Positions 1-64,000 of a stretch of DNA of 64,000 nucleotides are shown piece by piece. Within the stretch, counting starts at the first letter, position 1, and each line of letters starts with the position of its first letter. Origin of the DNA: a virus. The position numbers and the translations under genes were made by a program. The notes under the pieces were generated by a model. That model was given only the letters and a program-made list of their open reading frames with translations, had not been told where the DNA came from and did not search any database. The stretch spans positions 1 through 64,000 of IMG/VR virus record IMGVR_UViG_3300024336_000009; one strand, written 5' to 3'.

Positions 1-785
1 CCATTTAAATCTTTTGGAAAACACGAGAGCCCAAAACCCAATTTTCCATCTGGACCAGGTACTTTATTATGAGAATCTCCAATCCTCTTGTCATATACAA
101 TATACGAGATCATTTCGTCAAAGTCAATGTTTAATTTATCACAAATCTGTTTCATTTCATTGAAAAATGATACCTTCGTTGCTAAGAATGAATTGGCTGT
201 ATATTTTACCATTTCGGCGGTTGTCGAATCCGTACATAAATATTGTGATGTACGCATTTCAATTCCCTGTTCCCAATCTTCTTCGTTCAAGAATATTTTT
301 TGATACATATCCGCCACAAAATTGACTGATTCTTCAGGCCCACCCAATACAATCCTATTTTGATTCTTAAATTCTTCGATGAAATTCGCTTCGGTCAAGA
401 ATTCCGGATTGAATACGATACTTAATTTTGAATTAGTCAACCGTTTATTCATCATTTCTGTAAATCCTGGATAAACTGTAGATTTGACCACGACAATTTT
501 CTTTTTATCAAAATTTACATTATCAAATTCACCGATAATCTTTTCAACTATCTCAGTATTGCAACTACCATCCTTATTCATTGGGGTGTTTACACATAAA
601 AATATAATATTTGACCTATTCAGTACATGGATATTGTCGGCACACGGATGATGATTCTGATGACCATTGTGAGCATTCGTTTTTTGATTCAAATCGCTTG
701 TATAAATGGGAAATTTTTCCATTAATCCTTCTCGTACGGCCGTTCCTACGAACCCCATACCTATAACACCTATTTTGTATTTCAT
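1..785 (-). CDS. UDP-glucose/GDP-mannose dehydrogenase family protein (3' end beyond window)
   Basis: NAD-dependent oxidation of a nucleotide sugar to its uronic acid in the cytoplasm, feeding the glycan genes downstream. The N-terminus has the Rossmann motif GVIGMGFVG (residues about 6-14), and the last visible codons give CFPKDLN with the family's nucleophilic Cys at residue 255. The ATG is at 783-785. About 261 codons are visible and the C-terminal UDP-binding domain lies beyond the left edge. It is absent from simple ORF calling because it is open at the edge. Substrate (UDP-Glc, UDP-HexNAc or GDP-Man) cannot be decided from this part. The AT-rich late-promoter-like element at 797-814 sits just upstream. 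Confidence 0.9.
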   Translation of the reverse strand, partial: MKYKIGVIGMGFVGTAVREGLMEKFPIYTSDLNQKTNAHNGHQNHHPCADNIHVLNRSNIIFLCVNTPMNKDGSCNTEIVEKIIGEFDNVNFDKKKIVVVKSTVYPGFTEMMNKRLTNSKLSIVFNPEFLTEANFIEEFKNQNRIVLGGPEESVNFVADMYQKIFLNEEDWEQGIEMRTSQYLCTDSTTAEMVKYTANSFLATKVSFFNEMKQICDKLNIDFDEMISYIVYDKRIGDSHNKVPGPDGKLGFGLSCFPKDLN

Positions 786-796
786 AACCTTTATTC

Positions 797-814
797 CTTT
801 ATAATATATATCAG
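797..814 (-). promoter_or_regulatory. Candidate phage late-type promoter element
   Basis: Minus strand reads CTGATATATATTATAAAG, followed by AAGGA-like sequence and the ATG of the dehydrogenase at 785. It is one of a family of similar elements (5259, 26295, 31055, 34977, 56687, 58001) that sit a short distance upstream of start codons. Resemblance to the T4 late TATAAATA box is inference. Confidence 0.35.
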
Positions 815-835
815 AGCCCTAGCTCAAATACGATT

Positions 836-1675
836 TTATTTTACACTTTCTATAAAATCCCTAACATTTCTTTTAAGTGGAATTGATTGGACTTCACACA
901 ACGTATGTTCCATTTCACCTTCTGGCCTATCCACATATATTCGTTCCACGTCACCAAACATATCGGCTATCTCATTCATCGAATAATTTTCCCCCCGACC
1001 CAATTCATATAAATGGCCTTTATCATCCTGATATACCGATGACATCAGACCGTCTATAATATCCTCAACATGGGTGAAATCTCTCCTCTGAGTTCCATCG
1101 CCTGTAATTTTTAATGGCTTGCCCTCTTTGTATCTTCGTTGCCATACTCCCAATACAGTTCCAAATTCACAGCTGGTAATCATCCGAGGACCATATACGT
1201 TGTAGAATCTAGCTATGGATATATTCATACCATATACATTAGCATACATTCTACATAAATCTTCACATGCACCCTTTGATGCTGTATATGGGTTCTTTTC
1301 AATACCCCCACTTACTGATGAAGATGACGCGAATATAACTTTGATTTCATTTTTCCTAGCATATTCCAATATATTCAATGTACTCAATATATTGTTTTTC
1401 AATACCAACTCTGGATATTTGATTGATGGTTGTATTCGAGGGATTGCCGCGAGATGAAATATCATATCAACATCACTCATAAAGAAGTCATAATCTTTTA
1501 TTTGTTGTATGTCCACATTGTAATATTTGACCAGTGGATCATCAATGTGATTGTCCATTGTGCCAGTTACATAATTGTCCAATGATACTACATTTCAACC
1601 ATCATCTACCAGTCGTTTAATTAAATTGTAACCCACGAATCCTGCACCACCAGTGACCAATGCTTTCTTTTTCAT
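836..1675 (-). CDS. NAD-dependent nucleotide-sugar epimerase/dehydratase (SDR), TGA=Trp
   Basis: Extended SDR enzyme of 279 residues acting on a nucleotide-activated sugar. The N-terminus carries TGGAGFVGYNL (Rossmann motif). A TGA at 1595-1597 lies in the stretch LVDDG-W-NVVSLDNY, where related enzymes read DGHEV or DGWNV, so it must be sense. The SSSSVSGG stretch and YTASKGACE (YxxxK) give the catalytic Ser/Tyr/Lys. Its ATG overlaps the TAA of the upstream glycosyltransferase (TAATG). With the standard code only residues after the TGA are called and the NAD motif is lost. The exact reaction (4-epimerase or 4,6-dehydratase) is not resolved. Confidence 0.85.
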
Positions 1676-2919
1676 TATCTCAGTCTCCCGTCCTTATTCA
1701 CTTTAATTAGATCATTTTCATATCTTATCATTTCGTTAATTGTCACGGTGAAAGGACCCAATTCAAATTGTCCAATTTCACCACTGTCCTCAATAATATC
1801 GGGCAACATTGACAATGTATTTATATTATTCTTATCCAATTCATTAGCATCAAATGCGACCAAAATGTCGGGAGCTACAAATGAATTTTTACCATACGCA
1901 AATACCCGCTTACTCAAATCATACAATGTGTTTGGTTGTTCCTTTTCAATGTACGTTTCTATGGATATCGGTGACATATCAGTATGTATAGATGAACACC
2001 ATGGCTCTACCGCTTCCAGCAATTGTTTATCACAATTTTTGATAAGAAATCCGATATTGTATTTAGGAGAAATTATAGGATGGCCATACTCATTTTGTTT
2101 AACCATAACTCCATATTTTCTGATAAAATTACGCGTACTTTTCATGTTCTGTTTTAACCATTCGTCTGTCTCACGGCCAGCCATAATCACCTCACCCGTT
2201 GGATTTCGTTTGGCACCGTCCGCCATTCTGCTTCCACGGCATGTGAGGTGGTACACATACCCTTCCCATGTTTGAATGAAATTGCCACCATTAAGCATAA
2301 ATCTATTCCAACAATCATCGTCCTCCTTGCTTTGGGGAGCGAAAAGTGGGTCATGGCCCCCAATTTCTTTAAAATCCGATATATAACATACCCATGGGGC
2401 AAACACACTTTCAGTTGTTTTACCCCTATGTTCCAATTTCAATTGCTCAACGTATTTATCAAAATCAGATGCCACGAATTCATTCGGTTCAATGCCGTAA
2501 TCTTTAATGATTTTTTTAAGGGGTTCTTCAAAATGTAGAGGAGGTTCTATACGTGTAGCGGACACCATAACATTTGGAGCCAAATGCTTTAACATTGCAA
2601 CGTCCATGCCTTTTGCCGCCCACATATCAGCGTGAAATATACACATAATATCATTGGTTGCGTATTCAAGGGCAAGGACATCATATAAAATTGTGTGTCC
2701 CTGTCGGTCCGGACCCTCGTTTCGGTGTATTTTAACCCGCTCGTCTTTCTGTTGAATTTCAAGCATCCAATCCCACGTTCCGTCAGTAGACGCATCATCA
2801 GCCATACAAATCTCATGAATTGGGTCTAGGTTCTCCCTGATAGATTTGTATGCATTTTTCAGATACTTCAAATTTGTTCTGCTTGGTATAATAAATGATA
2901 TTGGTTGTATTTTATCCAT
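1675..2919 (-). CDS. Family 2 glycosyltransferase with C-terminal extension
   Basis: GT-A type glycosyltransferase of 414 residues. The N-terminus has the GT2 pattern SFIIPSRTNLKYL, then CMADDASTDGTWDWM (nucleotide-binding DD and STDGT) and FHADMW as the DxD-like metal site. A second block, PWVCYISDFKEIGGHDP, matches the acceptor-side region of GT2 enzymes. The last ~150 residues are unassigned. I chose the ATG at 2917-2919 (preceded by AAAAAGGA) over a longer in-frame start, because it overlaps only the last codons of the HNH gene upstream. Donor and acceptor unknown. Confidence 0.8.
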   Translation of the reverse strand: MDKIQPISFIIPSRTNLKYLKNAYKSIRENLDPIHEICMADDASTDGTWDWMLEIQQKDERVKIHRNEGPDRQGHTILYDVLALEYATNDIMCIFHADMWAAKGMDVAMLKHLAPNVMVSATRIEPPLHFEEPLKKIIKDYGIEPNEFVASDFDKYVEQLKLEHRGKTTESVFAPWVCYISDFKEIGGHDPLFAPQSKEDDDCWNRFMLNGGNFIQTWEGYVYHLTCRGSRMADGAKRNPTGEVIMAGRETDEWLKQNMKSTRNFIRKYGVMVKQNEYGHPIISPKYNIGFLIKNCDKQLLEAVEPWCSSIHTDMSPISIETYIEKEQPNTLYDLSKRVFAYGKNSFVAPDILVAFDANELDKNNINTLSMLPDIIEDSGEIGQFELGPFTVTINEMIRYENDLIKVNKDGRLR

Positions 2920-3670
2920 TATGTTTTCCTTTTTTAATATTTTCAATTGCTGGGATAAATCTTAAATTTGATATATCACCAATTACCTTTGGAGGAATTC
3001 CGTTCTCATACCCATAACAAATTGAAATTATGTGGTCTAAATGGTACGCGTCGTCAACTAAATCGACTCTTCCCCGTTTTTCAAAATTCTCCAATAGTTT
3101 AATCGGTTGTTGTTTAGTTGCACGCAGGACATCATGGTAATACCTTTCCTTTTTGGTAAGGGTTATTAATCACTCATGGTATGGCATCCCAACGTTTGTT
3201 TCTACCATTGCACGAATGCGATTTTCATTCATTTCATCTGCTGTTTCTTTACCATATTTTTCAACCCACACTTTATAAAATCCAAGCCCGTAATTGGGAT
3301 TCAATTTACCATATCGGCTCATGCCCGTTTTGGCTACTCGGTCATCATTCTCAGAAGTCAGACCTTCATTTCAACTAACTCGGTCTCCCGATGCATATGC
3401 ACTTTTCAACCCATCACTAATATTTTGTCTAGCTTCAGTGGTGTGCCGCAATGTCCCATTCTTACGTTTGGTTTCAATGCCCCAATTTCCAGTTTTTCTT
3501 TTAGTATCGTTGCCCTTTTTACTTCCAGCCAGCCCCGAACAAGATAAACACAATCTACATTCCTTTTCAGATTTCAAGTAATTTCATTCAATTGTATAAT
3601 AAATCTTACATTTACAATTTGGATTACCCCGTGGATTCGGGCATTCTCTAATCCATTCACATTCATTCAT
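2912..3670 (-). CDS. HNH homing endonuclease, three TGA=Trp codons
   Basis: Free-standing homing endonuclease of 252 residues inserted between two glycosyltransferase genes. It starts with a Cys-rich segment (CEWIRECP, CKCKIYY, CRLCLSC) likely binding zinc, has a basic middle, and ends with the HNH core AYHLDHIISICYGY followed by NLRFIPAIENIKKG. TGA codons at 3584, 3371 and 3170 are needed to join the pieces. The ATG at 3668-3670 overlaps the TAA of the upstream gene. The C-terminus is close to those of the HNH proteins at 4589 and 26714, where the equivalent motif is NLQMLPWEENIKKG or NLRFIPWEENLKKG. Confidence 0.85.
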
Positions 3671-4605
3671 TATACTAACCCTTCCGCTTTCAATATTTCA
3701 TTCCATTTAGCTGTCCACGCCTGTTCTGTATAATACGCGTCGTATCGTTTCTTGCAGGTGTCCGCACACAATTTATAGAATTTTTCATCTTTTAATTTTT
3801 CAACCAATAAACCGACCTGTTCCAAATCACCTTCATCCGTGGTTGTTAATGGATGTAATATTTTAGCAGCGTCGGTTGAATTATATCCGATAGTTGGTAT
3901 TCCAAATCTGGACGTATTCATAAAAAAAGTGGCGGCTGCATAGGTCCTCATTAGATGTATTGCGTATCTATAAGAACTCAATTCATTCATCCATTCTGTC
4001 CACATCATATATGGCAAATGCGTAACCATTTCTTCTTCACCATCCTTTTTTCTACCCATTGATGGTGCATGAATAGGCAATTCAAATTTGGATGCCATTA
4101 TATAACTATCCATTCCACCATACCAAGATACAAAATTGCCGCCAATAATTACAGCATCCTTTTTTACCTCAGATTCCGTGATAGTATCTTCTATCATTAG
4201 GCTCTGAAGAACATATGCCCTCTTGCCCGTAAGTCCACTATAATATGTTCTATCGATTTCATTATGACATAATAAGAAATCCGCTTCGACCAATGTATTA
4301 TAAAAATGGATTTGATTTGCGATATCATAGTCTTGCCAAAACCAATTGGGACCTTCCTGCTGCACAGAGACCACATTACACACAGTTCTAATTCTATCTA
4401 TATCAACCTGTGGTTTGTTCTTGGGAATTATGACAACCCCCAAATCGAATTTTTCATTGGTATTATATGGTTGGTGTATGTTAAAATGGTATGCCTTTAA
4501 ACTTGACATCCAAGCCATTTCTGTTCTCATGTTGGTGTGATTTCTAGGTACTCGACCTTCGAATCCGTTTTCCGTAAAAAATGCTATATTAGTCAATCTT
4601 GCCAC
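3670..4605 (-). CDS. Putative glycosyltransferase (GT-B-like)
   Basis: Protein of about 311 residues beginning TNIAFFTENGFEGRVPRN, with AYVLQSLMIEDTITES and RYAIHLMRTYAAATFFMNTSR, resembling the C-terminal nucleotide-sugar half of GT-B enzymes where a conserved Glu is often replaced. No family can be named firmly. The start is unusual: only GTG (4603-4605) or TTG (4594-4596) are available, while a truncated homologous start with ATG persists at 5383-5385 on the far side of the HNH gene. The HNH insertion probably replaced the original ATG. Likely part of the glycan pathway by context. Confidence 0.6.
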   Translation of the reverse strand: MARLTNIAFFTENGFEGRVPRNHTNMRTEMAWMSSLKAYHFNIHQPYNTNEKFDLGVVIIPKNKPQVDIDRIRTVCNVVSVQQEGPNWFWQDYDIANQIHFYNTLVEADFLLCHNEIDRTYYSGLTGKRAYVLQSLMIEDTITESEVKKDAVIIGGNFVSWYGGMDSYIMASKFELPIHAPSMGRKKDGEEEMVTHLPYMMWTEWMNELSSYRYAIHLMRTYAAATFFMNTSRFGIPTIGYNSTDAAKILHPLTTTDEGDLEQVGLLVEKLKDEKFYKLCADTCKKRYDAYYTEQAWTAKWNEILKAEGLV

Positions 4606-5248
4606 CTTTCTTTATATTTTCTTCTCATGGGAGCATCTGTAAATTCTCTATGTTCCCCATTATTTCAGGCAATATCCCATCCTTAAATCCGGCACTAACT
4701 GGATAGATATGATCCACATGATATGCCCCAACCGTTCCAGCCAGTCCACGTTTGTCATAATTCTCAAGAGTATGCAATGGCTGGTTGTTGGTTATCACGT
4801 CAACCTTCCGTCTGTATGTCATTTGCTCTCCCTGCTTGGCAACATACTCATCGTATGTCAAATCATATTTTTTCATTTGGCTCTTAACCCACGCGTTATC
4901 TTTTGCGAGTCGTGGAGTAGTCTGAGTATTGCCCGTTTTTTTACCCTTATTTCATGGGGTTTTGCCGGCATGCGTTTCACTCATTATTTTCTTTGTAGCG
5001 GATGTATGAGTTTTTCCATACATTCCATTGTCCGTGCCGATATGTGATTGTTTAGATTTAATCAATTTTATAGTTTCCTCATCATAACATTCTTCGTATG
5101 TTTTTCCACTATTCCAAGTGGGCTTGCCCGTATTCCATTTGTCCACACATTTTCGGCAACAAAATTTTGCCGTTTTTTCCCTAGCTTTTATAACTTCAAA
5201 TTCATTTCCACACGTTTCACAAATTTTATTAACCCGATTTTTCCTCAT
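4589..5248 (-). CDS. HNH homing endonuclease with NUMOD3-type motifs, two TGA=Trp codons
   Basis: Homing endonuclease of 219 residues. It begins with a zinc-ribbon-like CETCGNEF...CCRKC, has repeats of the NUMOD3 DNA-binding type (GKTHTSATKKIMSETHAGK), and ends with the HNH core AYHVDHIYPVSAGF. TGA at 4952 gives GKTPWNKGKK, the textbook NUMOD3 motif, and TGA at 4625 gives LPWEENIKKG, identical in type to its paralogue at 26714. Both support TGA=Trp. It overlaps the 5' end of the next gene by 17 bases. A late-promoter-like element lies upstream at 5259-5275. Confidence 0.9.
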
Positions 5249-5385
5249 AATAATCTCCCTTTATTATAAGTATCATGAAATTACATATTCGGTACGGGTA
5301 TTTGTATAATTCATCGTATGTTCTTTTAATCCAGTACCCCCAGTCTCGCGACATTGGGTTCTGTGAAAAATGCTATATTAGTCAT
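5249..5385 (-). pseudogene. Relic of glycosyltransferase gene ends left by HNH insertion
   Basis: Two overlapping remnants are visible. From ATG 5383-5385 a 19-codon stub reads MTNIAFFTEPNVAR and stops at 5326; it matches the N-terminus of the gene at 3670 (TNIAFFTENGFEG). In another frame, WGYWIKRTYDELYKYP matches the C-terminus of the gene at 5378-6160 (TGYWIERIYKEMYPND). The segment therefore looks like a duplicated and scrambled junction between neighbouring glycosyltransferases, next to the HNH gene. At nucleotide level about 18 bases around the start (TGACTAATATAGCATTTT) are identical in both copies. Confidence 0.65.
5259..5275 (-). promoter_or_regulatory. Candidate late-type promoter element (exact repeat of 58001-58017)
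   Basis: Minus strand TGATACTTATAATAAAG, followed by GGGAG and the start of the HNH gene. The identical 17-mer occurs upstream of the family A polymerase-like gene at 58001-58017. That makes it a good candidate for a phage-specific promoter. Confidence 0.45.
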
Positions 5386-8236: not shown

Positions 8237-8956
8237 TTATATCAAGCTTTCAAATTTTAAATCCACATTAAATACTTCCCTGTCCAGATCAATCATAAAC
8301 GACCACCATATCCTTTCAAAAGAATGTGCATACGTCCTTGTATTTAAATAGGCGTGAATAAATTTGTCATATTCAACTCCATACTTTTTGATATGATGAA
8401 ATATATCTTCAGACCTAGCCCAAAACATGGCCGCCTGATGAAATTTCCTACTAAGGTGTCTTAATTCATATTTCCCCTTCAATTCATTCATATATTGTTC
8501 TCGTCAACCCCTATGTATTGATCCTGTATAACCTATCATTCCCACATTATCACTTTGCAAAAAATGGTTGTGAATATCTTTAGAATTTAATAACAACGAA
8601 TCCAAATTTCTTTCCAGTAGATTTTCATTTTTAAGAGATTGCAATTTTATAATGAAATCATAAACCGGCCCATTTTCAATGATACTTTCCATCATCTTAA
8701 GCGTTCCATATCCATCTTGACCAACATTATTTTCATTGAAAGTATATGTTTTTTCAGCAATGGTTTCCAATGCCGATAAACATTCATCCTTTTTAGAAAA
8801 ATCGGGAATTTTTGTCGGGGGGATGGTGTCCAATCCTTCTTCCTTTGGGAAATTTATGTATAAATCAAAATCCAATTCAAACTTTTCAAGCCTCTTAGCG
8901 AATAATGGGTACTGATCAACATACCACATGTGAATCAATATGGCTATCTTACTCAT
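8237..8956 (-). CDS. RgpF-like glycan biosynthesis protein, TGA=Trp
   Basis: Protein of 239 residues. It begins MSKIAILIHMWYVDQYP and has DLYINFPKEE, NVGQDGYGTLKMM, DFIIKLQS and GMIGYTGSIHRG-W, matching the layout of rhamnan-synthesis protein F domains (short strand, N-x-GxD segment, late Trp-rich segment FERIWWSF). The TGA at 8504-8506 is needed to join the two halves; standard code gives two ORFs of 150 and 84 residues. Family call moderate. Confidence 0.65.
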
Positions 8957-12661: not shown

Positions 12662-14113
12662 TTAATTAATCTCATTGCGAATTCCCTTTTTACCAACCGC
12701 GGTGTATCAAGAATCCACATATCTGATACCTTTTTTCTCATCATATAATATATCTTTAAAATCATATCCCAATCTCAAAAAAATATTAGTAAACTCAATT
12801 TCAGTATTAATAGCCACCATCTTATCAGGGAAGAATCCATCCAATCCACCAAAATCCCCATGTGGCAACTTACCTTCAACTGAATCAATTTCATCTAAAT
12901 ATTTTTTATGAGTTAATCCACACCCATTAAAAACATGGGAATTTTCATGATCAGTATTGATGCCATTGGGAGTAATAAAAGCGACCTTATCAGTTGGATC
13001 ATTTAACGATTTATTTAATTCATCGTAACAATCCTTATACCACAACGGCTTATTCAAAATAATATCATCTTCTGTAAAAAATCAATACTCATATTCATTT
13101 TTAAATTTTTGATACGCGGCATTATATGCCCCATAAGAAATTCCCAGATTTTCTCTATTAATAACGCGAATTTTACCATTTTTTGAAGATTTACCATCTA
13201 TTGATTTTAAAAATTCATCACATTGTTGATTTCCATATTCATTATTAACTACAATGATATCAAATGGAATGCCACCATCCACCTTTTTATGAGTTTCATA
13301 AATATATTTTAATAATTTCATTGGATAATAATACCACGGCCGCATATCCTTTCGTCTGGGGCCGGCGTAAAATGCTATCACGTGACAACATTTCGGGGAT
13401 TTATCTCAATTGGAGTTTTCATCATCTCCCATAAATTTCCTTAATTTCGTTAAGTCCATGCTCACATCGGATGGCATAGTATAATGAAATTTCTCATTGA
13501 TAGGCATAACGTCCGGTTTGGTTTTTTTGGCCAAATCGTACATAGTTTTCAATTTGGTCCCGACATTATATACTCCATCGGCTTCACCTTCAATTAAATC
13601 TACCATAATTTTAGCTACTTCATTCACATAATCGAAATTTCCAATTTGATTTATATATGCACCATCATATTCAAATGGAGTTTCCTTATGAGTTCCCCTA
13701 ATTAATAAATAATTGGGCATTTTCAATTGAATATACGCGTCTGATAATAATTTGGTGTATCCGTACCAATTTTCACAATGGACTGGAACGTCACTTTCTG
13801 ATGCATTTGATTCTGAATTGGAGTAGATATAATCAGTTGAAATATGTACTAATTTCTGATCCATATTCCGCATATAATCTACCAGATCAACAACACCCTT
13901 ATAATTCACATCCCAGTGAGTACCGCGGGATTTGTCATATGTATTACAATACGCGATACAATTGACAACTGTACTATAATCCTTTACATATTTGGAATAT
14001 GTATTGATATCAGCAAAATCAATTCCATCATTTTTTCGGCTCACATAATCCCAGCCAGTTATTCTCCTCAGTTCAGACCCTAACAACCCGTCACCCAATA
14101 TTAATGGTGCCAT
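12662..14113 (-). CDS. Possible RmlD-like reductase / glycosyltransferase fusion, three TGA=Trp codons
   Basis: With TGA=Trp a single frame of 483 residues runs from ATG 14113 to TAA 12662. Residues 1-235 look like RmlD (dTDP-4-dehydrorhamnose reductase): LILGDGLLGSELRR, VVNCIAY, ISTDYIYS, and YGYTKLLSD with YxxxK. From about residue 245 a GT-A module follows: VIAFYAGPRRKDMR, DIIVVNNEYG, and YEYWFFTEDDIIL, in which Trp is encoded by TGA at 13082. TGA 12707 extends the C-terminus by 15 residues. The junction lies at TGA 13406 (NSN-W-DKSPK). A GTG at 13381 could start a separate protein if 13406 were a stop, but no good ribosome binding site precedes it. Fusion is the code-consistent reading. 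Confidence 0.65.
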
Positions 14114-18983: not shown

Positions 18984-18998
18984 ATCATTTATTCCTTA

Positions 18999-21031: not shown

Positions 21032-21032
21032 T

Positions 21033-26258: not shown

Positions 26259-26294
26259 ATTTTTCTTCTCCATCCGTATATATATATGTACACC

Positions 26295-39013: not shown

Positions 39014-39038
39014 AACCTATTTTCCTTTGCATTAAAAG

Positions 39039-39121: not shown

Positions 39122-39193
39122 AGCGGCTGGAAGGTCTTGAACCAACTCCTTCAGCTGGAAAGCTGACATGCAATCCTGTTACACCTCAGCCGC
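39122..39193 (-). tRNA. tRNA-Gly(UCC)-like gene, possibly degenerate
   Basis: 72 nt, acceptor GCGGCTG/CAGCCGC perfect, discriminator T. Anticodon stem TCAGC/GCTGA is perfect but the loop is six bases (TTTCCA), one short of normal, and the T stem GTTGG/CCTTC has two T-T mismatches. E. coli tRNA-Gly(UCC) has TCAGC-CTTCCAA-GCTGA here. It looks like a diverged duplicate of the tRNA at 39039. Identity is tentative; a functional tRNA is not certain. Confidence 0.6.
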
Positions 39194-48546: not shown

Positions 48547-48822
48547 TTATCCTTTATAATTCTTAGCTATTAATGAACCGTCCCACGCCTTTTCAGCAGG
48601 GAAATCATATTTGTTAAATCCAGAGAAGTAACCAAAGGTGTTACCACCTAAAGCGACCACTGCTTTGTTTAGAAAATCAATGTACTGAAAAGCAATACTC
48701 TTGCTCATTCGTACACCCTTTAACCGAGTGATTTCCTCACCAACTTTAACGAAAAAACCCTCTTCGTCTTTCATTAGTTCGTACTCAGTTTCATACCAAA
48801 ATATTCCAGTTATTTTTCTCAT
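48547..48822 (-). CDS. Small early protein
   Basis: 91 residues from ATG 48820-48822, preceded by GAGAGGACAATCAA; an earlier in-frame start lies too close to the promoter. MRKITGIFWYETEYELMKDEE then EITRLKGVRMSKSIAFQYIDFL and NTFGYFSGFNKYDFPAEKAW. First gene of the transcript from the promoter at 48849. Not recognised. Confidence 0.55.
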   Translation of the reverse strand: MRKITGIFWYETEYELMKDEEGFFVKVGEEITRLKGVRMSKSIAFQYIDFLNKAVVALGGNTFGYFSGFNKYDFPAEKAWDGSLIAKNYKG

Positions 48823-48848
48823 TTGATTGTCCTCTCTTATCATACCTG

Positions 48849-48877
48849 AAGATACAAGAAAAAAATGACAATGTCAA
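48849..48877 (-). promoter_or_regulatory. Early sigma70-type promoter P1
   Basis: Minus strand TTGACA (-35), 17-base spacer TTGTCATTTTTTTCTTG, TATCTT (-10). It is one of four near-identical promoters (49360, 52698, 54259). The -35 is a consensus hexamer and the spacing is ideal. Predicted start about 48842, giving a 20-base leader. Confidence 0.8.
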
Positions 48878-48895
48878 GCGTTATTTTGCTTTTTC

Positions 48896-48923
48896 GCAAA
48901 AAAAAAGCACCATTTCTGATGCT
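48896..48923 (-). terminator. Rho-independent terminator
   Basis: Minus strand AGCATC-AGAAAT-GGTGCT followed by TTTTTTTTT. It lies just after the stop of the gene at 48946 and just before promoter P1, so it separates two early transcripts. Confidence 0.75.
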
Positions 48924-49314: not shown

Positions 49315-49359
49315 TTTTTTCTCCAATTGTGTTTTGTTTTGACTTTCTTATCATACCTG

Positions 49360-49388
49360 AAGATACAAGATAAAAATGACAAAGTCAA
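49360..49388 (-). promoter_or_regulatory. Early sigma70-type promoter P2
   Basis: Minus strand TTGACT, 17-base spacer TTGTCATTTTTATCTTG, TATCTT. The surrounding 55 bases match P3 at 52698 almost completely. Confidence 0.8.
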
Positions 49389-49417
49389 GCGTTTTCTGCT
49401 ATTATTTTAATTTATTT

Positions 49418-49771
49418 TTAAACACTTTCCAAAAATTTGGCTGTTACATCAACCACATTTTCCCGTAGAGCGTCATTAAATATAATCTGATGTTCCATTT
49501 CGATGGTTTCTTCACAATCAAATTCAATCATTATAAATCCATTGTCAACCATTTCTTGAACGTCCCGTTTAGAAAACCAATAAGACATATCAGCCATGCT
49601 ACCAACTGCAGTTTTCCAAATCTTACCGTCTGTCCTATGAATATCATCATGGGGCATGGGCATTTCGGCCAGTCTCCTATCGGTTAGTTTTTCAAGTACT
49701 AACTCACCATCAAATTTAACTGTCCACATTCCATCAGTTGTTGCTTTGTGCTCGATTCTGTAAAGCTTCAT
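49418..49771 (-). CDS. Early hypothetical protein
   Basis: 117 residues: MKLYRIEHKATTDGMWTVKF, TDGKIWKTAVGSMADMSYWF, and a C-terminal EHQIIFNDALRENVVDVTAK. The layout suggests a small ADP-ribosylation or binding fold but I do not recognise it. Confidence 0.5.
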   Translation of the reverse strand: MKLYRIEHKATTDGMWTVKFDGELVLEKLTDRRLAEMPMPHDDIHRTDGKIWKTAVGSMADMSYWFSKRDVQEMVDNGFIMIEFDCEETIEMEHQIIFNDALRENVVDVTAKFLESV

Positions 49772-51184: not shown

Positions 51185-51706
51185 TTAATCTTCCTCATAT
51201 CCATATAGTTCATCGAGATGTGCCCACATATCTGCAAAGAGTACCCCACGCTTTAGAGCGTATCTGAATGTTGGGTATTCCTTAGTGTATGCTTTAAACA
51301 TGCGATGCCCGTTCCTCTTTGACCGGCGGGTGTTTGCAATCCTGTCCGATAATTTTAGAAACGTGGCTCCGTGGCTTTCTCTTGTTTTGGGGTAAGTTTT
51401 CATTCCCCGTTCAATTCTGTTTTTTCCCAATTCGTTGGTAACTCTATATACCAAATCAGCAACTACCGTTCCAACCACCTTTTCCAAATCTCCATAGCTG
51501 GTATCTGTATCTTCCAATACGTCATGGTTCCATGCCGCTGAAATCAGTTGTTCGTAGTTTTCGGAGAATCCCCGAATTAGATGCTTAAATTCTTCAACCA
51601 CGTTTACCACTTCGCTCAAGTGGGTTTCATATGGTTTTCCATCATAGGTTTGATTTGCTATGCTGTGTCTATGTACTGCGTACGATTTTGCTTTCTCAAT
51701 CATCAT
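51185..51706 (-). CDS. SpoT/MESH1-like HD-domain hydrolase
   Basis: 173 residues. YDGKPYETHLSEVV supplies the first His, AAWNHDVLEDTDTSYGDL the HD and ED motifs (61-62, 65-66), and TFLKLSDRIANTR the distal KxSDRxxN motif (118-125). The set defines (p)ppGpp-hydrolase-type HD proteins. In a phage it could erase the host stringent signal or degrade defence nucleotides; this is inference. No synthetase domain. Confidence 0.8.
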   Translation of the reverse strand: MMIEKAKSYAVHRHSIANQTYDGKPYETHLSEVVNVVEEFKHLIRGFSENYEQLISAAWNHDVLEDTDTSYGDLEKVVGTVVADLVYRVTNELGKNRIERGMKTYPKTRESHGATFLKLSDRIANTRRSKRNGHRMFKAYTKEYPTFRYALKRGVLFADMWAHLDELYGYEED

Positions 51707-52415
51707 CTTCCTCCAAATAGTCGGTCATGTGTTCGTTTTCAAACATAACTTTTTCTAAAAATTCTGCCAGTTCCTTGATGTGATGGGCCTTAAATTCAAA
51801 TTTGTCCCATTCTCTAATCATTCCAGAGCCTGAATCGATTGAATACTGACCATCGGGCTGAGCTGATAATGTCAATAAAGGTAATGGAACCGTTGTTGTC
51901 TCTTGCCCATAATAGGAACGTTTTTCCATTTCACGGGTTTTACTAGCTATATCAATAGTTCTAGTCCCACGAGTTGTGACATTAAAATTTCCATCATCGA
52001 ATTCTGAAATTGCGTTGTATTTGAAATCTTCAACTTTGTTTTTCTCATCGATTAATTGCCGAATATGTTGCTCATATTGTTTCATCGCGTCGTTGGCCAA
52101 TGTGAATATTTTCTTAAATTTACCCAATTTCTTTTCACGACGATCTCTGTGGTACAGAAAAGAAGCGTATCCCGGTTCATATACAAATCTACCTGGAGAC
52201 ACATTTGAATAAATTTCAGTATGGGTAATCGAAATTCTGAATTCGTTTTCGTTTTCAATTTTACCAGAAGTGTTTTTACCCCAAATTCTGATATATTGGT
52301 CTCTTACCCGTTCAATTTCAATCGAAATATACGGACTTTTCTTAAACAATTGAACCAAATTTAGGTTCAAAAATGCTTCTAATTTATCAAATTCTTGTTT
52401 GGTTACTATAGCCAT
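51669..52415 (-). CDS. Early hypothetical protein, ends by TGA read-through or TGA
   Basis: The frame reads ...DYLEEDDD then TGA (51696-51698); read as Trp it continues WESKIVRST to TAG 51669-51671, overlapping the HD gene by 38 bases. If TGA is a stop the gene ends at 51696. Body: MAIVTKQEFDKLEAFLNLNL, ISIEIERVRDQYIRIWGKN, and a C-terminal PHHIKELAEFLEKV-like helix (AHHIKELAEFLEKVMF). Function unknown. It is one of two places where TGA could still act as a stop. Confidence 0.55.
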
Positions 52416-52416: not shown

Positions 52417-52671
52417 TTATATACTAATTCCTTTAAATGTGGGGAATGCCCGTTTTAATACCAATTTATCCCAATCACTAAATTTTACTTCGGGTATTAA
52501 AACCTTAGGCTTTAATTCCGATGTCATTGGGTTGTGATTCATACCACTTAAAAATATAGTTGCACCCACGGGATATTCAACAAAATCACCCATTTCGGCG
52601 AGACGCAAAAAATCACTCCTAAAAATATCAGTTAATAGTCGTAATTCATTTTTCGTAATATTTGTAAACAT
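52417..52671 (-). CDS. Small early protein
   Basis: 84 residues from ATG 52669-52671 with GAGAGGAAATACCA upstream: MFTNITKNELRLLTDIFRSD, EMGDFVEYPVGATIFLSGMN and a C-terminal VLKRAFPTFKGISI. The longer in-frame start sits within the promoter. Not recognised. Confidence 0.5.
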   Translation of the reverse strand: MFTNITKNELRLLTDIFRSDFLRLAEMGDFVEYPVGATIFLSGMNHNPMTSELKPKVLIPEVKFSDWDKLVLKRAFPTFKGISI

Positions 52672-52697
52672 TGGTATTTCCTCTCTTATCATACCTG

Positions 52698-52726
52698 AAG
52701 ATACAAGATAAAAATGACAAAGTCAA
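52698..52726 (-). promoter_or_regulatory. Early sigma70-type promoter P3
   Basis: Minus strand TTGACT, 17-base spacer TTGTCATTTTTATCTTG, TATCTT, same as P2. The upstream edge follows the stop of the RNA ligase gene (52740). Confidence 0.8.
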
Positions 52727-52739
52727 GCGTTTTCTGCTA

Positions 52740-53684
52740 TTATTTTAATTTATTTACCATTTTTTCATTCCATTTGGACATCCAATGATCATCAGTTGCC
52801 CCGACATGACCAGCACGGACACATTTTCCAACCGAATCAGCGAAGTCGTCATAGTGAAATCTGTCAGCCAGACGAACTACATAACCTTCAACCTCATCAC
52901 CATCCAACCCATTTATCATCAAATCGTCTCCAATTTCACGAATTATCGATTCGTCATATATTCCTTCATATATTGTAGCGACCGGTGTTAATCCCAAATC
53001 TTCAATATAATGAAGTGTAGATTTCCATGATAAACAAATATTGTCAGCTTGCCATATTGAAAATGCTTGGAAATAACTGTCCAGATATTTATATTTGATA
53101 GCGTGTTCTGCATATAAATTTTCACCACACACGCGCCACCCTGCAGGGAGACGGTGCCTGATAGAACCATGGATTCCCTTTACATAATTGCGACTATTGT
53201 GATGTCTACTATCCAATGATCGAGCATGGAAATGGTCGTTGTACATTGTCGTATTCTCACCATCCATTTTCACAGTTACAACAACTTCTTTGCCAATAAA
53301 TTGATCAGGATTTTCCATCATCTTGTCATCATTCTGAAGTCCTTCCGACCAAGGAAAATGATACGTTCGTGGGTACTTGAAATATTTTTGTGTTTTACCC
53401 CACTTGTCATAATCCAATCTTGGATCGTATGTCCCATCGGGGAGAATCACTTCTTCAATGCCAATAATTTCCCTCAGATCGGCTGGAGTAATATCACCAT
53501 TTTCCGCTTCCAAGTGATGTTTGGAGCACAATGAGGCCCCATTGTCCAAGTAGTACCCACCATCTTTAAACAGTTTCCTGTCCATTATATGATGTGCATC
53601 GACCGCCTCTTCACCACATATTACGCATAGTGAAATATCACGTTCAAATACCTGCATCCCAAATTCTTTTCTAGTTAGTAACAT
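52740..53684 (-). CDS. HNH-RNA ligase fusion protein
   Basis: 314 residues. The N-terminus is an HNH/zinc-knuckle module (CVICGEEAVDAHHIMDRKLF, then CSKHH, about 20-57). From about 110 an RNA ligase follows: TVKMDGENTTMY with the adenylated Lys139, HARSLDSRHH, RVCGENLYAEHA, and VEGYVVRLADRF (about 265-276, motif IV). The order fits Rnl2-type ligases. It seals RNA ends healed by the PNK at 49787. I use ATG 53682-53684; the earlier start overlaps the neighbour. Confidence 0.85.
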   Translation of the reverse strand: MLLTRKEFGMQVFERDISLCVICGEEAVDAHHIMDRKLFKDGGYYLDNGASLCSKHHLEAENGDITPADLREIIGIEEVILPDGTYDPRLDYDKWGKTQKYFKYPRTYHFPWSEGLQNDDKMMENPDQFIGKEVVVTVKMDGENTTMYNDHFHARSLDSRHHNSRNYVKGIHGSIRHRLPAGWRVCGENLYAEHAIKYKYLDSYFQAFSIWQADNICLSWKSTLHYIEDLGLTPVATIYEGIYDESIIREIGDDLMINGLDGDEVEGYVVRLADRFHYDDFADSVGKCVRAGHVGATDDHWMSKWNEKMVNKLK

Positions 53685-53880
53685 TATGTAACCTCTTATA
53701 ATCCTCGTCCTCAAATATGATTTTACCATCACGTTCCACACGGACAATATCAAATTTTATGTTTTTCTTAGACGTGAAGTCTTCATTATGTGTGCCCCAA
53801 ATGCTTCCAGCATAAGTTAGATACACCCTGTTATTTCTGAATGTCAATGAATCGTATGGTTGTAAATCTTTTAATTTCAT
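53671..53880 (-). CDS. Small hypothetical protein (69 residues)
   Basis: MKLKDLQPYDSLTFRNNRVY, LTYAGSIWGTHNEDFTSKKN and FEDEDYKRLHNVTN to TAG. Beta-rich, perhaps an SH3-like barrel, but not recognised. Overlaps the ligase start by 14 bases. Confidence 0.5.
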   Translation of the reverse strand: MKLKDLQPYDSLTFRNNRVYLTYAGSIWGTHNEDFTSKKNIKFDIVRVERDGKIIFEDEDYKRLHNVTN

Positions 53881-54236
53881 TTTTTTACCCTTATTTCTAT
53901 CTCATATAAATAATCCCAATGGCCACTTGGTTGATATTTTATGACCTTTGGATGATATTTTAATTTGTGCAATGTATCTTCAATCCCGAAGATTGTATCC
54001 ATCGCCTGTTTTACACTATCTTTGCGAGTACCCATATTTCCACGAAATGATACCGAAATATTCACAGCCTTTCGTGATCTTCGGATTTCCACCGATCCCA
54101 ATCCAGAATGATATGTTCCATTATCAGCCTGTCTGGCCACCTCTGCAACATCTGTTAAATTATCTGAATTTATTACATCCGATATTGTCCCATCCATATC
54201 TTCTGGTAGTTCAAATAGTGTGTGTTCGTCAGTCAT
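53871..54236 (-). CDS. Early hypothetical protein, possible TGA read-through at its end
   Basis: 121 residues with TGA=Trp: MTDEHTLFELPEDMDGTISD, KAVNISVSFRGNMGTRKD, DTIFGIEDTLHKLKYH, then VKK-W-N and TAA 53871-53873. With TGA as stop it ends at 53877 and overlaps the next ATG (ATGA). First gene behind promoter P4. Unknown function. Confidence 0.55.
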
Positions 54237-54258
54237 TTTGTCCTCTTTTCCTTAGATG

Positions 54259-54287
54259 AAGATACAAGATTATCCGCACAAAGTCAA
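54259..54287 (-). promoter_or_regulatory. Early sigma70-type promoter P4
   Basis: Minus strand TTGACT, 17-base spacer TTGTGCGGATAATCTTG, TATCTT. Same hexamers as P1-P3 but a more divergent spacer. It follows directly after the terminator at 54308. Confidence 0.8.
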
Positions 54288-54307
54288 GCTTTATTTTGCA
54301 ATGCCGC

Positions 54308-54329
54308 AAAAAAAACCCCCAATCGGGGG
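54308..54329 (-). terminator. Rho-independent terminator
   Basis: Minus strand CCCCC-GATT-GGGGG followed by TTTTTTTT. Strong hairpin with U tract after the stop of the gene at 54335; it separates the late block from early promoter P4. Confidence 0.88.
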
Positions 54330-54334: not shown

Positions 54335-54751
54335 TTAGTTTTCTTTAGATTCTCATTCGGTTACATTAATGATTGTATATATCCGGGTGGGTATTTTAAC
54401 AAACCCAGAGGAGTTCGTAAGCAATAAATTATTTCTGAATTCGTCTCAATCTATTGGAAATGTCTTATCCAGTACCCCATTGTTCTTACGCCTAATCACT
54501 TCATTAAGAGCGTTAATGGTATATAGTGTATTGGATTGTTTTTTTCTATGCAAGGAAATGGTATCCTTATTTGTAAGGTAATTTTCAGTATCCTGTTCTA
54601 TATTGTATGTGCATATCAACTGGTGGAAATTGTCTTCATTTTGAAACACGTATATTTTATTGAATAGTATTTCATGGTAATCAATGATTAAATCTATCGT
54701 ATCGTGCAACTGATTCCGTTTTGTGAATGAGCAAAGTAATTGCGTGTGCAT
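54335..54751 (-). CDS. Conserved phage protein of unknown function, two TGA=Trp codons
   Basis: 138 residues joined through TGA 54446 (PID-W-DEFRNN) and TGA 54353 (TE-W-ESKEN). MHTQLLCSFTKRNQLHDTID, KIYVFQNEDNFHQLICTYNI and RKKQSNTLYTINALNEVIRR; the last stretch is one I recall as conserved in large phage genomes. Function unknown. The standard code ends it 37 residues early. Confidence 0.65.
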
Positions 54752-58615: not shown

Positions 58616-58618
58616 TTT

Positions 58619-61066
58619 TTATAATGCATCCGGAATAATATAACCCAATCGTCTCATTAATTCAGCTTTCGTTTCCGAGTTCTCAGTCCTTTCAATTTGT
58701 TCTTCATTTTCGGCCTTTTCATCTTTTAGGAAATTTCGGTCGGATTTTTCCGTGTCAAGTTGATCCCTTACGGATATTCTCATTTTTCCCACAATGGAAG
58801 TTTTTCAGCTGGACGCGTCCAGCTCTTGTGTAGAACTCATAACCTGAAATAATACCCGATCTTTATATTGGGAAGGCAGATAATTGCTTGTAAAACAATT
58901 TCCTGGGAAAATCCCAGATATACCATCCAATGTTAATGAGATTTCCAACGCGACCATGGGATCAAAATCAATAGAAACCGATTCTTTTTCATCGTATGTA
59001 ATTAAATATTTCATGACATCCAATCATGGAGTGTCCTTGGTATTTAATAAATTCCCCCAATATCCATAAACACTGCCAGTCAATGTGTCTTTATCTTCCG
59101 ATTTGAAATTAAAATCAAAAAATTGTTTTTCGGTAAATTTCAACGTATGTATGCTTTTGACAGTTTCGGCGGTTTCATCATCGTGATTTTCTGAATCTGA
59201 CCCTTTTTTATCAATGGCCTCAATACCAACATCGGGACCACTTTCCGTATCAAATTTGGAATTTACCCCAGCGGATTTATTACCAAATTTATCAAAATTT
59301 CAACCGGGTTTAATATCATGAATCAGCCCGTCTTTATCACCAGGAGCACTACCCAATTTACTAGCAGCGACAATTTTAATGCCTCCCATTTGGGAAGGTG
59401 ACGTAATTTCCTCAGCATTATCCCACATCATCGCCATAGCCATTTCATTTGTAATTTTAGCATTTAATGATTGTGCAGTAACAATACTATCCTTACCCAT
59501 AACTGGGAAATGGAATAAACCACCAGTAACAGTTTCTCAATATTTATCCAATTCACTCGGAATTTTAAGCAACGATTTTACAGATTGTTTGGTAAGATTC
59601 ATGTCTACAATCTTTAATGTACCGGGTCTATCTGGTGCAGATACCAATTGCAAATCTCATATTCCAACATTTTCATTCATTCTCTCAAACAATTTTTTAA
59701 GTGCACTGGTGATATCAGACGCGTCATTGAATACATTTGTTATCAAATAATTCCAATTGAACATTATATTTCGCATGTATCCTATCTTTAAATTTTTATA
59801 TTCAGCTGGATCATCAGTTACTTGGAACGTTGGGAAATCCTTATTAAAATCCCGCAATATCGGATGAACATCAGTAAGATCATCCACATTTCTATGCGAT
59901 TGTCCAGGTAAAATAAAAAATTTATAATCTGGAGAAATCAATTTATCATGACTTGATATTTTAGTTGATTGTCATGCCAGCTGATCTGGGGGCAATCCTT
60001 CAGTTTCAGCCAATCCAGCCGTTTCGATTGTGTGTTGATCCCCGTTGTCTTTTAATATAGGTTCTATACTTCGAATTGAACTTATTACTACACCGTGAGC
60101 GTCCACTTTGCTTAAATATTTATTTAATATATTATCTTCTATTCATCCCCATGATATATATAATTCATGTGATCTCGGATCGGCACCGGTAGATGGTTCA
60201 AATCTATTCTTAATTCATTGTAATGGCATTCCTTCATTGCCAATTCCACCATCATCCACATGTTTAAATTTTTCAAGTTTGGTTGAAATGTCCCTTAGAA
60301 ATGTTTGGAAATTTTGTTTAAGTTCAACTTTTCGGTTATCATTTTTATCCGTTTTTGCGACATTTATATTGTCCACTGGAGTAATTCGTTGTTTTAATAT
60401 GTCTAATCCCATTGAAGAAATATTGGTAGTGCAATCGATTCCCCCATCGTCTCTAGTCGATCATTCAAAATTGGTTACGAGACCAATCATACCATCATAA
60501 GTTCCATTGGAATTAAATGAATTTTCCATCATTTTTTTATGTGCCAATATCATATCTGGGCTTTTTTCATTTATATCATGTAATACCATATCATTGTCCG
60601 AATATGAATATCCCCATTCTAAAATAACAGTTCTACCCGGTTTTAAAAAATATGGAGTATATTTGGTAACATCGTCAAATGACCAACAAGTCCAATTAAT
60701 AGTAGCAGTACGCAATGTCGCCAATGTATTTTTATATTCAACACTAATACTTTTTACTCCAGGCATTGGTCTGTACTGATTATCACCAGTATTTCTAGGA
60801 GAATTATACATATCCTCAAAACCATAATATGCTTCTTGATTTTCTTTTAACAATCCCCCACCTATTATTACAGGTTTATCATCTTTGATAAGCCCAACCA
60901 TCCGGATTCAAGTCGATTTTGCAAAAATGTTATTTGCGTCGGCTTTCTTTTTCCCAGTACCATCGGTCTGCGGACCTTCAAATAGTATGCCTTCTCTATT
61001 TAACAACTTTTGTCGTCTGTGCAATTCCGCCCTAATTTTACTATGTATGGGTTGTAGATTAATCAT
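58619..61066 (-). CDS. Baseplate/tail-type virion protein, ten TGA=Trp codons
   Basis: One frame of 815 residues from ATG 61064-61066 to TAA 58619, held together by TGA at 60908, 60461, 60215, 60143, 59972, 59657, 59537, 59300, 59024 and 58805. The N-terminal half has NWTCWSFDDVTKYTPYFL and GRTVILEWGYSYSD, a pattern I associate with myovirus baseplate hub-type proteins. The C-terminal third is charged and helical (EKAENEEQIERTENSETK). It contains 7 TGG and 10 TGA. Standard calling leaves five or more short ORFs. Exact baseplate role unknown. Confidence 0.85.
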
Positions 61067-61068
61067 TA

Positions 61069-61371
61069 TTAAAACCCCCTATTTAATTCTTCCAAATCAC
61101 TAAATATTTGTGCAGTGTCGGTGGGTATTCTGATATCCAGTCCAGATTTTAATGTAAAATTTGCATCATCTATATCATTGGCAAGTGCTATTATCCACCA
61201 CAACGATGTGTCTCCATAATATTTAAATGCAAGCAAATCTAGCCTGTCACCTTTTTTGGACATTGTGAAAATATCAGAATCCAATATTGGAATCTTGGGA
61301 TACAATGTAGTCTTAAATACACGGTTTTTTAAAGAATTTCTTTTTATATTGGTGTGTGTATATCTACCCAT
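61069..61371 (-). CDS. LysM-type baseplate protein (gp53-like)
   Basis: 100 residues. FTMSKKGDRLDLLAFKYYGDTSLWWIIALANDI (about 36-68) is a LysM-like module with the YYGD...WW.IA.AN pattern of T4 gp53-type baseplate wedge proteins. Its position between two tail proteins supports this. No TGA. Confidence 0.75.
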   Translation of the reverse strand: MGRYTHTNIKRNSLKNRVFKTTLYPKIPILDSDIFTMSKKGDRLDLLAFKYYGDTSLWWIIALANDIDDANFTLKSGLDIRIPTDTAQIFSDLEELNRGF

Positions 61372-61374
61372 TTT

Positions 61375-64000
61375 TTAATCCTCCCACGATGGATCAGACC
61401 ATGAAAATGGTCCATCGCCCTTTCCAGATTGCCCCATTTCCGCGAACAATTCCCTTAAATCCATCCCATCGGAATGCCTATCGGGATAATTGCCATTTGG
61501 ATTATCCAAATATGCAGTGGAACTTTTATTATTGTTATTTTTATAATCCAGCCAATCCAAATCATAATGCTTACCCTTTTGAGCCGGCTTGTGTTTTCCA
61601 ATGTATTTATACCCAACACTAACACTTAAATGCTTGGGCAATTTGAAATGATCATCCAATTCCCAAGTGGTGTTATCTTCTACCGTTATTGATAAGCTGG
61701 TTAAAAATCCTGGAGCCCCCGTTCACATATTACCAATGGTCAATTCGGCAAATGGAGATACCATTCGTTCCATATCACTATTGGAAAAATCTTTTCAGCT
61801 GGGGTAACACATTCCAATTAAATAATTCATTTTTTCTCATAAAATTGGCAGTTCCTGTTTCGTCTTTGGATATACATTGAAATTGAAACTTATTTCCCTG
61901 TCCACTCCAGCGTATGTATATACTTTATCGGGGCGGCCTATGTATTTTTCTTCTGATCAATCTGGTGTAACACTATCCGATATCCCAGACAGAATGGCTC
62001 TGAAAATGATTCATTTATTATTGACCACATCTTTAAATTTAAATGGAATGAAATCTCGTACTTCTAAATTGTTAATTTCCTTTGGCTCTTTTCCATTAAC
62101 ACTCCCGTATGGTAGGGCATTAACTTTGTCAACCTTACTTGTCATAAGCTTACTCGATCCCAAATCGGCCTTAATATGACTAAAACCAGCCTTTTTCAAA
62201 CCGGCATTAAATGTCTCGGGCCTAAAGAAAAATCCATCTCCGGTTGTTTCAGACCCATCTGTAAATTGTCTAAGAATTCCAGCATTACTTTGATCTCCAA
62301 CATCAATTACAGCAAATTTTTCATCATCACCAAATTGATCTTTTCGAATTCTATCTATCTCTCTACTTGCTTCCGCATTATTGCCCAGTAGACTTCCCAG
62401 TTTTGATAATAACGGATTTGTTCCCGGATTATCTATAATTGCTTCTTCTTTTCTGAAATGATAATTCAATGAATTTTCACCCCAATCAACAAGTTTTGTA
62501 TCTAAAGGATTGGCCGCTTCGAATTCCAAAACGGTAGATGATACAAGTGGTGATCCAGTATTCCAATGTCGGTTGATATGAACTGTAGGCGTTATAGAAC
62601 CCAATGACAATGGATTCCATGTTCTAGTTTCTTCCTTAGTATTAAGGGTCTGCAATGCCACTTGTTTTATTCCAAATAGAACACCTTTAGTCGAAAGTAT
62701 AAATTTGCCGATTCTGAATACATCGGCAATAGTTCTTGATATGGATGTAATTAATCCACCACGTACTATGCCCTCATCAAAAGCGCCTGTATTACCCAAT
62801 CCATATTTATCTCCTATATCATGAAGGTAAAATGGTTGGTTAAATCCTATATCATTATGTCCATCTCCAATTCTATAATTGAGTTCATCACCGTCTTTAA
62901 ATCCACGGCCGTAATAATTATCCAAATTTGTAGCATCATCATTTCCCCACGAATCTTTATGCAAATCTTTTAAGCGTGATTGATCACCACGTGTGTTATT
63001 TGTTATTGAGCTGCCCTCTCCAATTTTGGCCACGGAAGGAGAATAAGCCTCCCCCCTATAAAAACCAGTATTCAGAAATTTTGGTGAATTTTCATTCTGT
63101 TTGCCCAATTGAAAATTTCTAGTATATGGTTCCATTGTCAATGTGGTACTGGTATCAAAATATTGAATTCTAGATCGTCGTTTGTATGTTTTTGTATATG
63201 ACTTGCCTATACTGAATGTTTTAAACCACGAATCCGTAGGACTTGGAGTATCTTCTTTTGTAGGTAAAGCGATATTGGAATTCAATGACGACAATGCTTC
63301 ATATGCATGCCCAAATATATCCGTAAATGTCATGTTTATTGCATCGCCGGTTTTAAATCTACTGTCTTTAATTGGTCCAAATAAGCTGGCAAATTGTAAT
63401 GTTGATGTAGGTTTAGTAGACGCTTTATTTGGTAGGTATGTTCCAGCCCAATCAATGTTTTCATCCGAATCGGTCAGTATTCTAGTCTGTAATCCATAAT
63501 TACCAACAAAACTATATTGTTTTGGAATATGAAATGTAGGTTGTTTTCCATCCACAAATGATGTATTGATAGCATCTTTAGTTGTGGATCATACTGGAGC
63601 AGTCGCTATTCTAGATAATTGTCTAGCTCTAATAGTAGTTGGATTGTGTGCGGCCAAATTGACATCACCCTCAATCCAATGCAATGAATCTTCAAAATCT
63701 ACCTCTGGATAATGATCAAAAAATGTTCGGTCTGTTTTCTCATATGATATTGGAACACCAGTATCAGCTATGTCTCCTGTCATATATTGAACAGAATCTG
63801 CAAATGGAATCGCCGTGTGATGATTAAATGCCGCTCTAGTTTTAGCGTATGAAATTGGCAATGTTATCGCCGGAGTGTCATAAACAATATCAGGATTAGT
63901 TACCGATGTTTCAATTGGAGGAGCATATCTACTAATATAACTGGCAATTGGAGTAGTCATAAAATCACTCCCATGTGCGCCCAATGTACTGGGTGTCGTA
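61375..64000 (-). CDS. Large tail/baseplate virion protein, six TGA=Trp codons (5' end beyond window)
   Basis: Open frame of at least 875 residues ending at TAA 61375, with in-frame TGA at 63589, 62011, 61957, 61837, 61795 and 61723. The C-terminal region DREISFNFNVYPKTKQELPI-LW-EKMNYLIGMCYPSW (about 1.1-1.3 kb from the end of the visible part) matches a pattern of phage tail proteins (beta-sheet, then LxxLWxKLNxLxGxxYP). The frame is open through base 64000, so the start is not visible. Eleven TGG and six TGA encode Trp here. Confidence 0.8.

Follow-up and report, generated by a model that had tools for sequence, protein, structure and literature searches.

Does TGA end translation in this phage, or does it specify an amino acid? 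The question arises from the window analyzed here, bases 1-64000 (64,000 nucleotides) of the 71,794-base IMG/VR record IMGVR_UViG_3300024336_000009 (contig G000), which is about half of the genome of an uncultured T4-like myophage. An earlier reading of the window (the original prediction) had proposed that TGA is decoded as tryptophan (Trp) throughout. Our comparisons of homologous sequences make it very probable that TGA is a Trp codon in this T4-like phage, as in NCBI genetic code 4, although “throughout” proved too strong, the replication module being nearly free of TGA and the codon being unevenly spread.

TGA codons were masked as X before relatives were searched. The 140-kb sister contig IMGVR_UViG_3300035698_008372 (G005) carries homologues of 65 G000 genes at approximately 75% protein identity, and when 60 reciprocal best pairs were aligned by codon, 33 sites had TGA in either genome. 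At 27 of these both genomes have Trp (9 with TGA in both), and the remaining ones are Tyr (3), Leu (2) and Phe (1), with Gly, Cys or stop opposite TGA at none of the 33. In the contigs of standard-code relatives, 206 of the 383 residues aligned to TGA sites of the two genomes are Trp, 98 are Phe (nearly all in UvsX), 33 Leu and 14 Tyr, the remainder being scattered; Gly, Cys and Arg do not occur among the 383. The closest cultured relative, Microcystis phage Mel-JY01 (PP395634; UvsX 53%, PolB 41%), has Trp opposite all three TGAs of the G005 terminase and opposite one TGA of the G005 portal protein. Paralogues within the genome pair LPUEENIKKG with IPWEENLKKG and KQUEN with KQWEN, where U denotes TGA. 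Trp is the modal residue in the sister genome, the standard-code relatives, solved structures and within-genome paralogues alike, as the original prediction had expected, and the feared majority of other residues was not seen; its rejection of TGA as Gly (code 25), Cys (code 10) or stop likewise held. The sense state of TGA is common to the two sister lineages and absent from homologous standard-code genes. Sequencing error as the source of the TGAs is excluded by independent, near-identical contigs from other metagenomes, which retain them at 99.9-100% identity over 10-22 kb.

The reading frames point in the same direction. Re-calling with table 4 in place of the standard code raised the greedy open reading frame (ORF) cover from 0.852 to 0.917 and lengthened the average ORF from 253 to 309 amino acids, a larger gain than when TAG or TAA was released, and sister contigs tested in the same way gave longer genes and higher coding density under code 4 than under code 11. 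Frames rich in TGA contain no TAA or TAG at all, and the other two frames of the large genes contain dozens. With TAA and TAG as the sole stops, the gene caller found 89 genes with 46 TGA versus 342 TGG codons in the whole 71.8-kb contig, and 37 in-frame TGAs in 17 genes inside the window; the gene at 54335-54751, overlooked by the caller, adds two (54448 and 54355) and the HNH ORF at 26714-27568, in its long form, another two, so that the earlier count of 38 TGAs in 16 genes was about right. The five sites singled out at that time are all in frame on the minus strand, with codon 5' ends at 16604, 46772, 4954, 27091 and 4627, their positions having been given as the low coordinate of each codon. 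G005 also has in-frame TGAs, of which few near gene starts are trustworthy, the caller overextending starts under code 4. The TGA-bearing genes of the window are the following.

58619-61066, minus strand: large tail-region protein, 815 amino acids, 10 TGA versus 7 TGG; TGA at 60910, 60463, 60217, 60145, 59974, 59659, 59539, 59302, 59026 and 58807
61375-64000, minus strand, continuing to 64629: tail-region protein, 1084 amino acids; six TGAs, at 63591, 62013, 61959, 61839, 61797 and 61725
54335-54751, minus strand: small conserved gene, 138 amino acids; TGA at 54448 (conserved Trp) and 54355 (variable)
45762-46886, minus strand: UvsX/RecA recombinase (PF00154, E=1e-54); TGA codon 46772-46770, residue 39
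16101-17069, minus strand: GDP-mannose 4,6-dehydratase (PF16363, E=2e-129); TGA codon 16604-16602
12662-14113, minus strand: RmlD/epimerase-like protein, 483 amino acids; TGA at 13408, 13084 and 12709
2912-3706, minus strand: phrog_5104 protein with the C-terminus common to HNH homing-type genes; TGA at 3700, 3586, 3373 and 3172
4589-5248, minus strand: NUMOD3 (HNH-type) homing endonuclease (PF07460); TGA at 4954 (TPWNKGK) and 4627 (LPWEENIKKG)
26714-27568, minus strand: HNH-type gene with a C-terminal motif as in 4589-5248; TGA at 27091 (SPWNKGL), and the two in the long ORF
836-1675, minus strand: NAD-dependent epimerase (PF01370); TGA at 1597, Trp (TGG) in G005
8237-8956, minus strand: RgpF-like glycan protein; TGA at 8506, from its own frame only
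18300-18983, minus strand: FkbM methyltransferase (PF05050); TGA at 18548, from its own frame only
20084-21088, minus strand: glycosyltransferase (PF13524); TGA at 20668, from its own frame only
24457-26052, minus strand: glycosyltransferase; TGA at 26028 (codon 9), TGA in G005 too
26067-26273, minus strand: 68-amino-acid gene; TGA at 26216, TGA in G005 too
30232-30909, minus strand: homing endonuclease (NUMOD3/NUMOD1, phrog_314); TGA at 30783
51669-52415, minus strand: gene of 248 amino acids under code 4; TGA at 51698, nine codons before TAG
53871-54236, minus strand: gene of 121 amino acids under code 4; TGA at 53879, two codons before TAA

Support differs from site to site. In the 815-residue tail protein, six sites are Trp in G005 (60910, 60463, 60145, 59659, 59539 and 58807) and three are Tyr, and 60463, 60145, 59659 and 58807 are Trp in distant standard-code relatives as well; in the 1084-residue protein, five of the six are Trp in G005, and 62013, 61959 and 61839 also in contig L006. 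All 40 standard-code matches have Trp at site 54448, as do the three best-matching solved GDP-mannose dehydratases (KLYGHW) at site 16604. At the UvsX site, 13 contigs of the recoded clade have TGA, and among relatives 33 have TGG and 46 TTT or TTC. In the RmlD/epimerase-like gene, G005 has Trp at 13084 (as TGA) and 12709 (as TGG). Among the homing-type genes, site 4627 is TGG in G005 and Trp in the paralogue at 26714-27568, and 27091 is Trp (TGG) in a G005 homologue, while each TGA of the phrog_5104 gene is individually weakly supported. At site 26216, 14 standard-code relatives have Leu or Ile.

If TGA is a sense codon, what has become of it as a terminator? Among conserved genes with an alignable C-terminus, relatives end in TGA in 98 of 522 cases (~19%) and G000 in none of 31 (P about 0.0016), and the same comparison for G005 gave 0 of 45 versus 99 of 580 (P about 2e-4), both P values treating genes as independent. 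The caller forces TAA or TAG ends; a separate check found no TGA of the phage's own near the point where relatives stop. This loss includes replication genes, and the clamp-loader gene at 33310-34236, terminated by TGA in 29 of 34 relatives, ends here in TAG or TAA. TGA terminates 52 of the 226 genes called in Mel-JY01.

Several points weigh against a full reassignment. The P values on stop usage rest on the independence just mentioned, and the coding assignment itself comes from sequence comparison. In the Lys, Glu, Gln, Arg, Gly and Val pairs, 63-84% of the synonymous codons end in A, yet TGA makes up 12% of the Trp codons of G000, a disparity that marks the reassignment as incomplete. In addition, a few terminal TGAs, mostly in early-gene islands of G005, look like stops: in these islands (L084-L090; 24.6-35, 43-48, 63-71 and 114-140 kb) TGA occurs in the last 15 codons of 15 of 127 genes, versus 1 of 110 elsewhere (P=5e-4), and some of these codons form ATGA stop-start overlaps. 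In the window, the terminal TGAs at 51698 and 53879 may be true stops; either that, or such terminal codons are recent acquisitions with a harmless short read-through. The TGA at 51698 recurs in G005 after EEDDD, with the start of the downstream gene lying 8 bases ahead of it; at 53879 the G005 homologue ends at nearly the same place, in TAA. The terminal TGA at 70066 had been considered as a further ATGA overlap and was set aside, the next gene having a better start with a Shine-Dalgarno sequence at 70037, where its G005 homologue also starts.

Near-identical dispersed copies of a promoter-like element, TTGACTTTGTCATTTTTATCTTGTATCTT, with a 17-base spacer, immediately precede small genes of the minus strand (48820-48913, 49343-49418, 52667-52762 and 54257-54323); more than 20 copies are present in G005, where they probably mark the early-gene islands.

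The distribution of TGA along the genome is strongly skewed. In G000 it accounts for 28% of the Trp codons of structural genes, for 10% of those in the glycan cluster and for 3% of those in the replication and early genes (structural versus replication, P=2e-7). In the three large tail genes TGA makes up 20 of 43 Trp codons and in homing-type genes 11 of 23, versus 15 of 322 in all other genes, that is, ~47% versus ~5%, the homing-type class being slightly overstated because it counts 69418-69846, later recognized as a paralogue of 70040-71164. The skew in G005 has the same direction and is weaker (14% versus 6-7%), and UvsX, a replication gene, keeps its TGA in both lineages. The observed skew is what one would expect from late expression, and equally from weak selection for yield. 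The tandem paralogues just mentioned (KLYESI.KQWENYVELDEIDF...; L002 14419-16165, contig 69418-71164) are absent from G005; one of them has three TGAs, at the first of which the other has TGG.

Which tRNA, then, reads UGA? ARAGORN and Rfam found no tRNA with a UCA anticodon in the 71.8-kb contig or in the 140 kb of G005, with approximately 40 kb of the genome unseen, and lenient ARAGORN runs returned only noise. The RF-1 domain (PF00472) and the class Ib synthetase domain of the tryptophanyl-tRNA synthetase (TrpRS) type (PF00579) are absent from eight contigs, the controls being positive; only some phages with opal suppression encode such proteins. As G005 has no match to Mel-JY01 at about 159-190 kb and 1-11 kb (the baseplate/primase/AAA arm), up to ~40 kb of the genome is unseen; extension of contig ends by exact pattern gave short extensions only, with no tRNA in them. 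Host searches with PolB and a DegT aminotransferase against genome contigs returned no relatives. Two tRNA genes were detected in the window.

39038-39110, minus strand: tRNA-Gly(UCC) (ARAGORN; Rfam, 51.6 bits), not a UGA reader
39122-39193, minus strand: tRNA-Gly-like gene with an aberrant anticodon loop (Rfam, 36 bits), conserved in G005 and contig G006

As a candidate for reading UGA, the second gene was discarded: UCA does not occur in its anticodon loop (UUUCCA), a genuine tRNA-Gly(UCC) lies next to it, and at minimum energy it does not fold into a clean cloverleaf. The loop is closed by UCAGC/GCUGA and the T stem has two U-U mismatches; the G005 counterpart (81817-81889) shows a compensatory change in the closing stem (UCGGC/GCCGG). 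The acceptor stem of the gene in the window begins with GCG and the gene has U73, features which we take, from identity rules, to be those of tRNA-Gly. The gene is conserved and is not a normal tRNA. G005 has three Gly-like tRNAs, none with UCA.

With TGA as a Trp codon, ribosomes would insert Trp at UGA during infection, where a Trp-charged tRNA would read the codon with presumably little competition from release factor 2 (RF2). UGA is probably decoded less efficiently than UGG, or later, and selection would accordingly retain UGG in replication genes. Because no decoder is present on G000 or on the 140-kb sister contig, the tRNA would be either encoded in the unseen ~40 kb or supplied by the host.

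One tentative explanation is that the host itself uses code 4, with a tRNA-Trp(UCA) and no RF2, and that the phage follows its host. The lack of a suppressor tRNA, release factor or TrpRS in the 140 kb of G005 and the disappearance of TGA stops from conserved genes, replication genes included, are consistent with such a host; the hosts of most cultured code-4 phages use code 4 themselves (PMC11210395), and UGA as Trp has been reported for a family of Patescibacteriota and for Fastidiosibacteraceae (PMC13092985). However, TGA makes up 12% of the Trp codons and is almost absent from replication genes, in which a fully code-4 host would give no reason for avoiding it; moreover, Mel-JY01, the nearest cultured relative, infects a cyanobacterium, terminal TGAs persist in the early genes of G005, and both host searches came back empty.

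It is also possible, though short of probable, that the phage imposes a mainly late recoding on a standard-code host, through a suppressor tRNA-Trp(UCA) encoded on the unsequenced part and expressed during infection, as in many crAss-like phages. The enrichment of TGA in structural genes and its near absence from replication and early genes fit late recoding, as does the crAss-like precedent, in which TGA as Trp is mostly confined to late genes (Yutin et al., 2021; PMC7886860), and the unseen arm leaves room for the tRNA. Nevertheless, no contig examined contains a UCA tRNA, UvsX keeps its TGA in both lineages, and homing-type genes also carry the highest TGA load, a sign of relaxed selection no less than of timing.

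A rather unlikely alternative is that UGA is read, inefficiently and without any UCA tRNA, by a near-cognate tRNA-Trp(CCA) of the host, such as a form whose anticodon stem has 4 bp, so that UGA persists chiefly where a low yield is acceptable. Such a tRNA reads UGA in E. coli, and genomes that have it use fewer UGA stops (PMC13092985), in line with the low, skewed usage and the lost TGA stops found here; the large tail proteins, however, are presumably needed in fair amounts.

We consider it improbable that UGA has a dual meaning, as a stop in the early genes (the sigma70-promoter islands of G005) and as Trp in UvsX and the late genes, switched during infection without a phage UCA tRNA, perhaps through RF2 depletion that would let the ordinary tRNA-Trp of the host read UGA. 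Finally, nonsense mutation, hypermutation, assembly error, or Gly or Cys coding is scarcely credible: a single transition turns TGG into TGA and many TGAs sit in homing-type genes, a class that often decays, but decay or hypermutation fails as an explanation because no TAA or TAG interrupts the same frames, identical TGAs recur in independent assemblies and in part even in G005, and no Gly or Cys is aligned.

Opal-recoded phages are already known among crAss-like phages and others, and this T4-like lineage is a further case, which agrees with the original prediction that stop recoding has been described for some phages and that novelty lies in this genome; stop recoding of lytic genes has reportedly been described by Borges et al. 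(2022), as cited in PMC10746230. In crAss-like phages, UGA likewise encodes Trp mostly in late genes, the match with a suppressor tRNA, which is not always present, is imperfect, and inteins and homing elements occur in the same genomes (Yutin et al., 2021; PMC7886860), whereas the present lineage is T4-like (UvsX, PolB and gp32, with a T4-type terminase and portal in G005), has no UCA tRNA seen and has a large glycan cluster. Code 4 has been predicted for 27 INPHARED genomes and 46 UHGV viral operational taxonomic units, 15% of the set having a Sup-TCA tRNA, and most cultured members come from Mycoplasma or Spiroplasma (Cook et al., 2024; PMC11210395); there, too, table 4 is needed for correct genes, but our lineage lies closest to phages of Microcystis and to other T4-like phages from aquatic settings. 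Phages of Absconditabacteria and Gracilibacteria (code 25; PMC10746230) also use TGA as a sense codon, which is Gly in their case, whereas no TGA site aligns with Gly here. Mel-JY01 is largely collinear with G005 from the terminase to the glycan genes but uses the standard code. Bacterial hosts with UGA as Trp, and the 4-bp-stem tRNA-Trp(CCA) that reads UGA, are described in PMC13092985.

With the present analysis, the phages that left the standard code come to include a T4-like lineage with relatives among aquatic myophages. Standard annotation truncates its tail proteins and UvsX and, in G005, the terminase and portal proteins. Its standard-code relatives are near enough for codon-by-codon comparison, so that one can trace, gene by gene, how TGA was lost as a stop and gained as a sense codon, and with no decoder visible, both the host and the missing genome arm are worth finding.

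Nearly all genes of G000 lie on the minus strand. The T4-type core comprises UvsX/RecA, gp32, a DnaB-like helicase, a T4 baseplate protein, a tape measure protein and a PolB homologous to those of Mel-JY01 and cyanophages (gp43), and a homologue of the tube protein gp19 is among the T4-like core proteins of the lineage; G005 carries the T4-type terminase and Portal_T4. PNKP and an RNA ligase are also present, as are the genes for sugar-nucleotide enzymes and glycosyltransferases that make up a 27-kb cluster, family searches on the glycan genes having been used for annotation only. The class II ribonucleotide reductase (39888-42920, minus strand) contains an intein that bears an HNH domain. In G005 the portal protein also has an intein, which contains four of the five portal TGAs, and PolB is split around an inserted ORF. 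A DruA-like protein (37856-39013, minus strand; PF14236, Druantia defence protein) is 90% conserved in G005 and also occurs in Pelagibacter and cyanophages. The N-terminal motif MKKSELRQIIREEIQKLN recurs at the start of eight genes (G005 3755-5250, 18432-19800 and 37307-37850). Near-identical contigs differ almost solely in a patch of ~350 bases within the baseplate hub gene (L002 13107-13880, contig 68106-68879), as after a recombination event.

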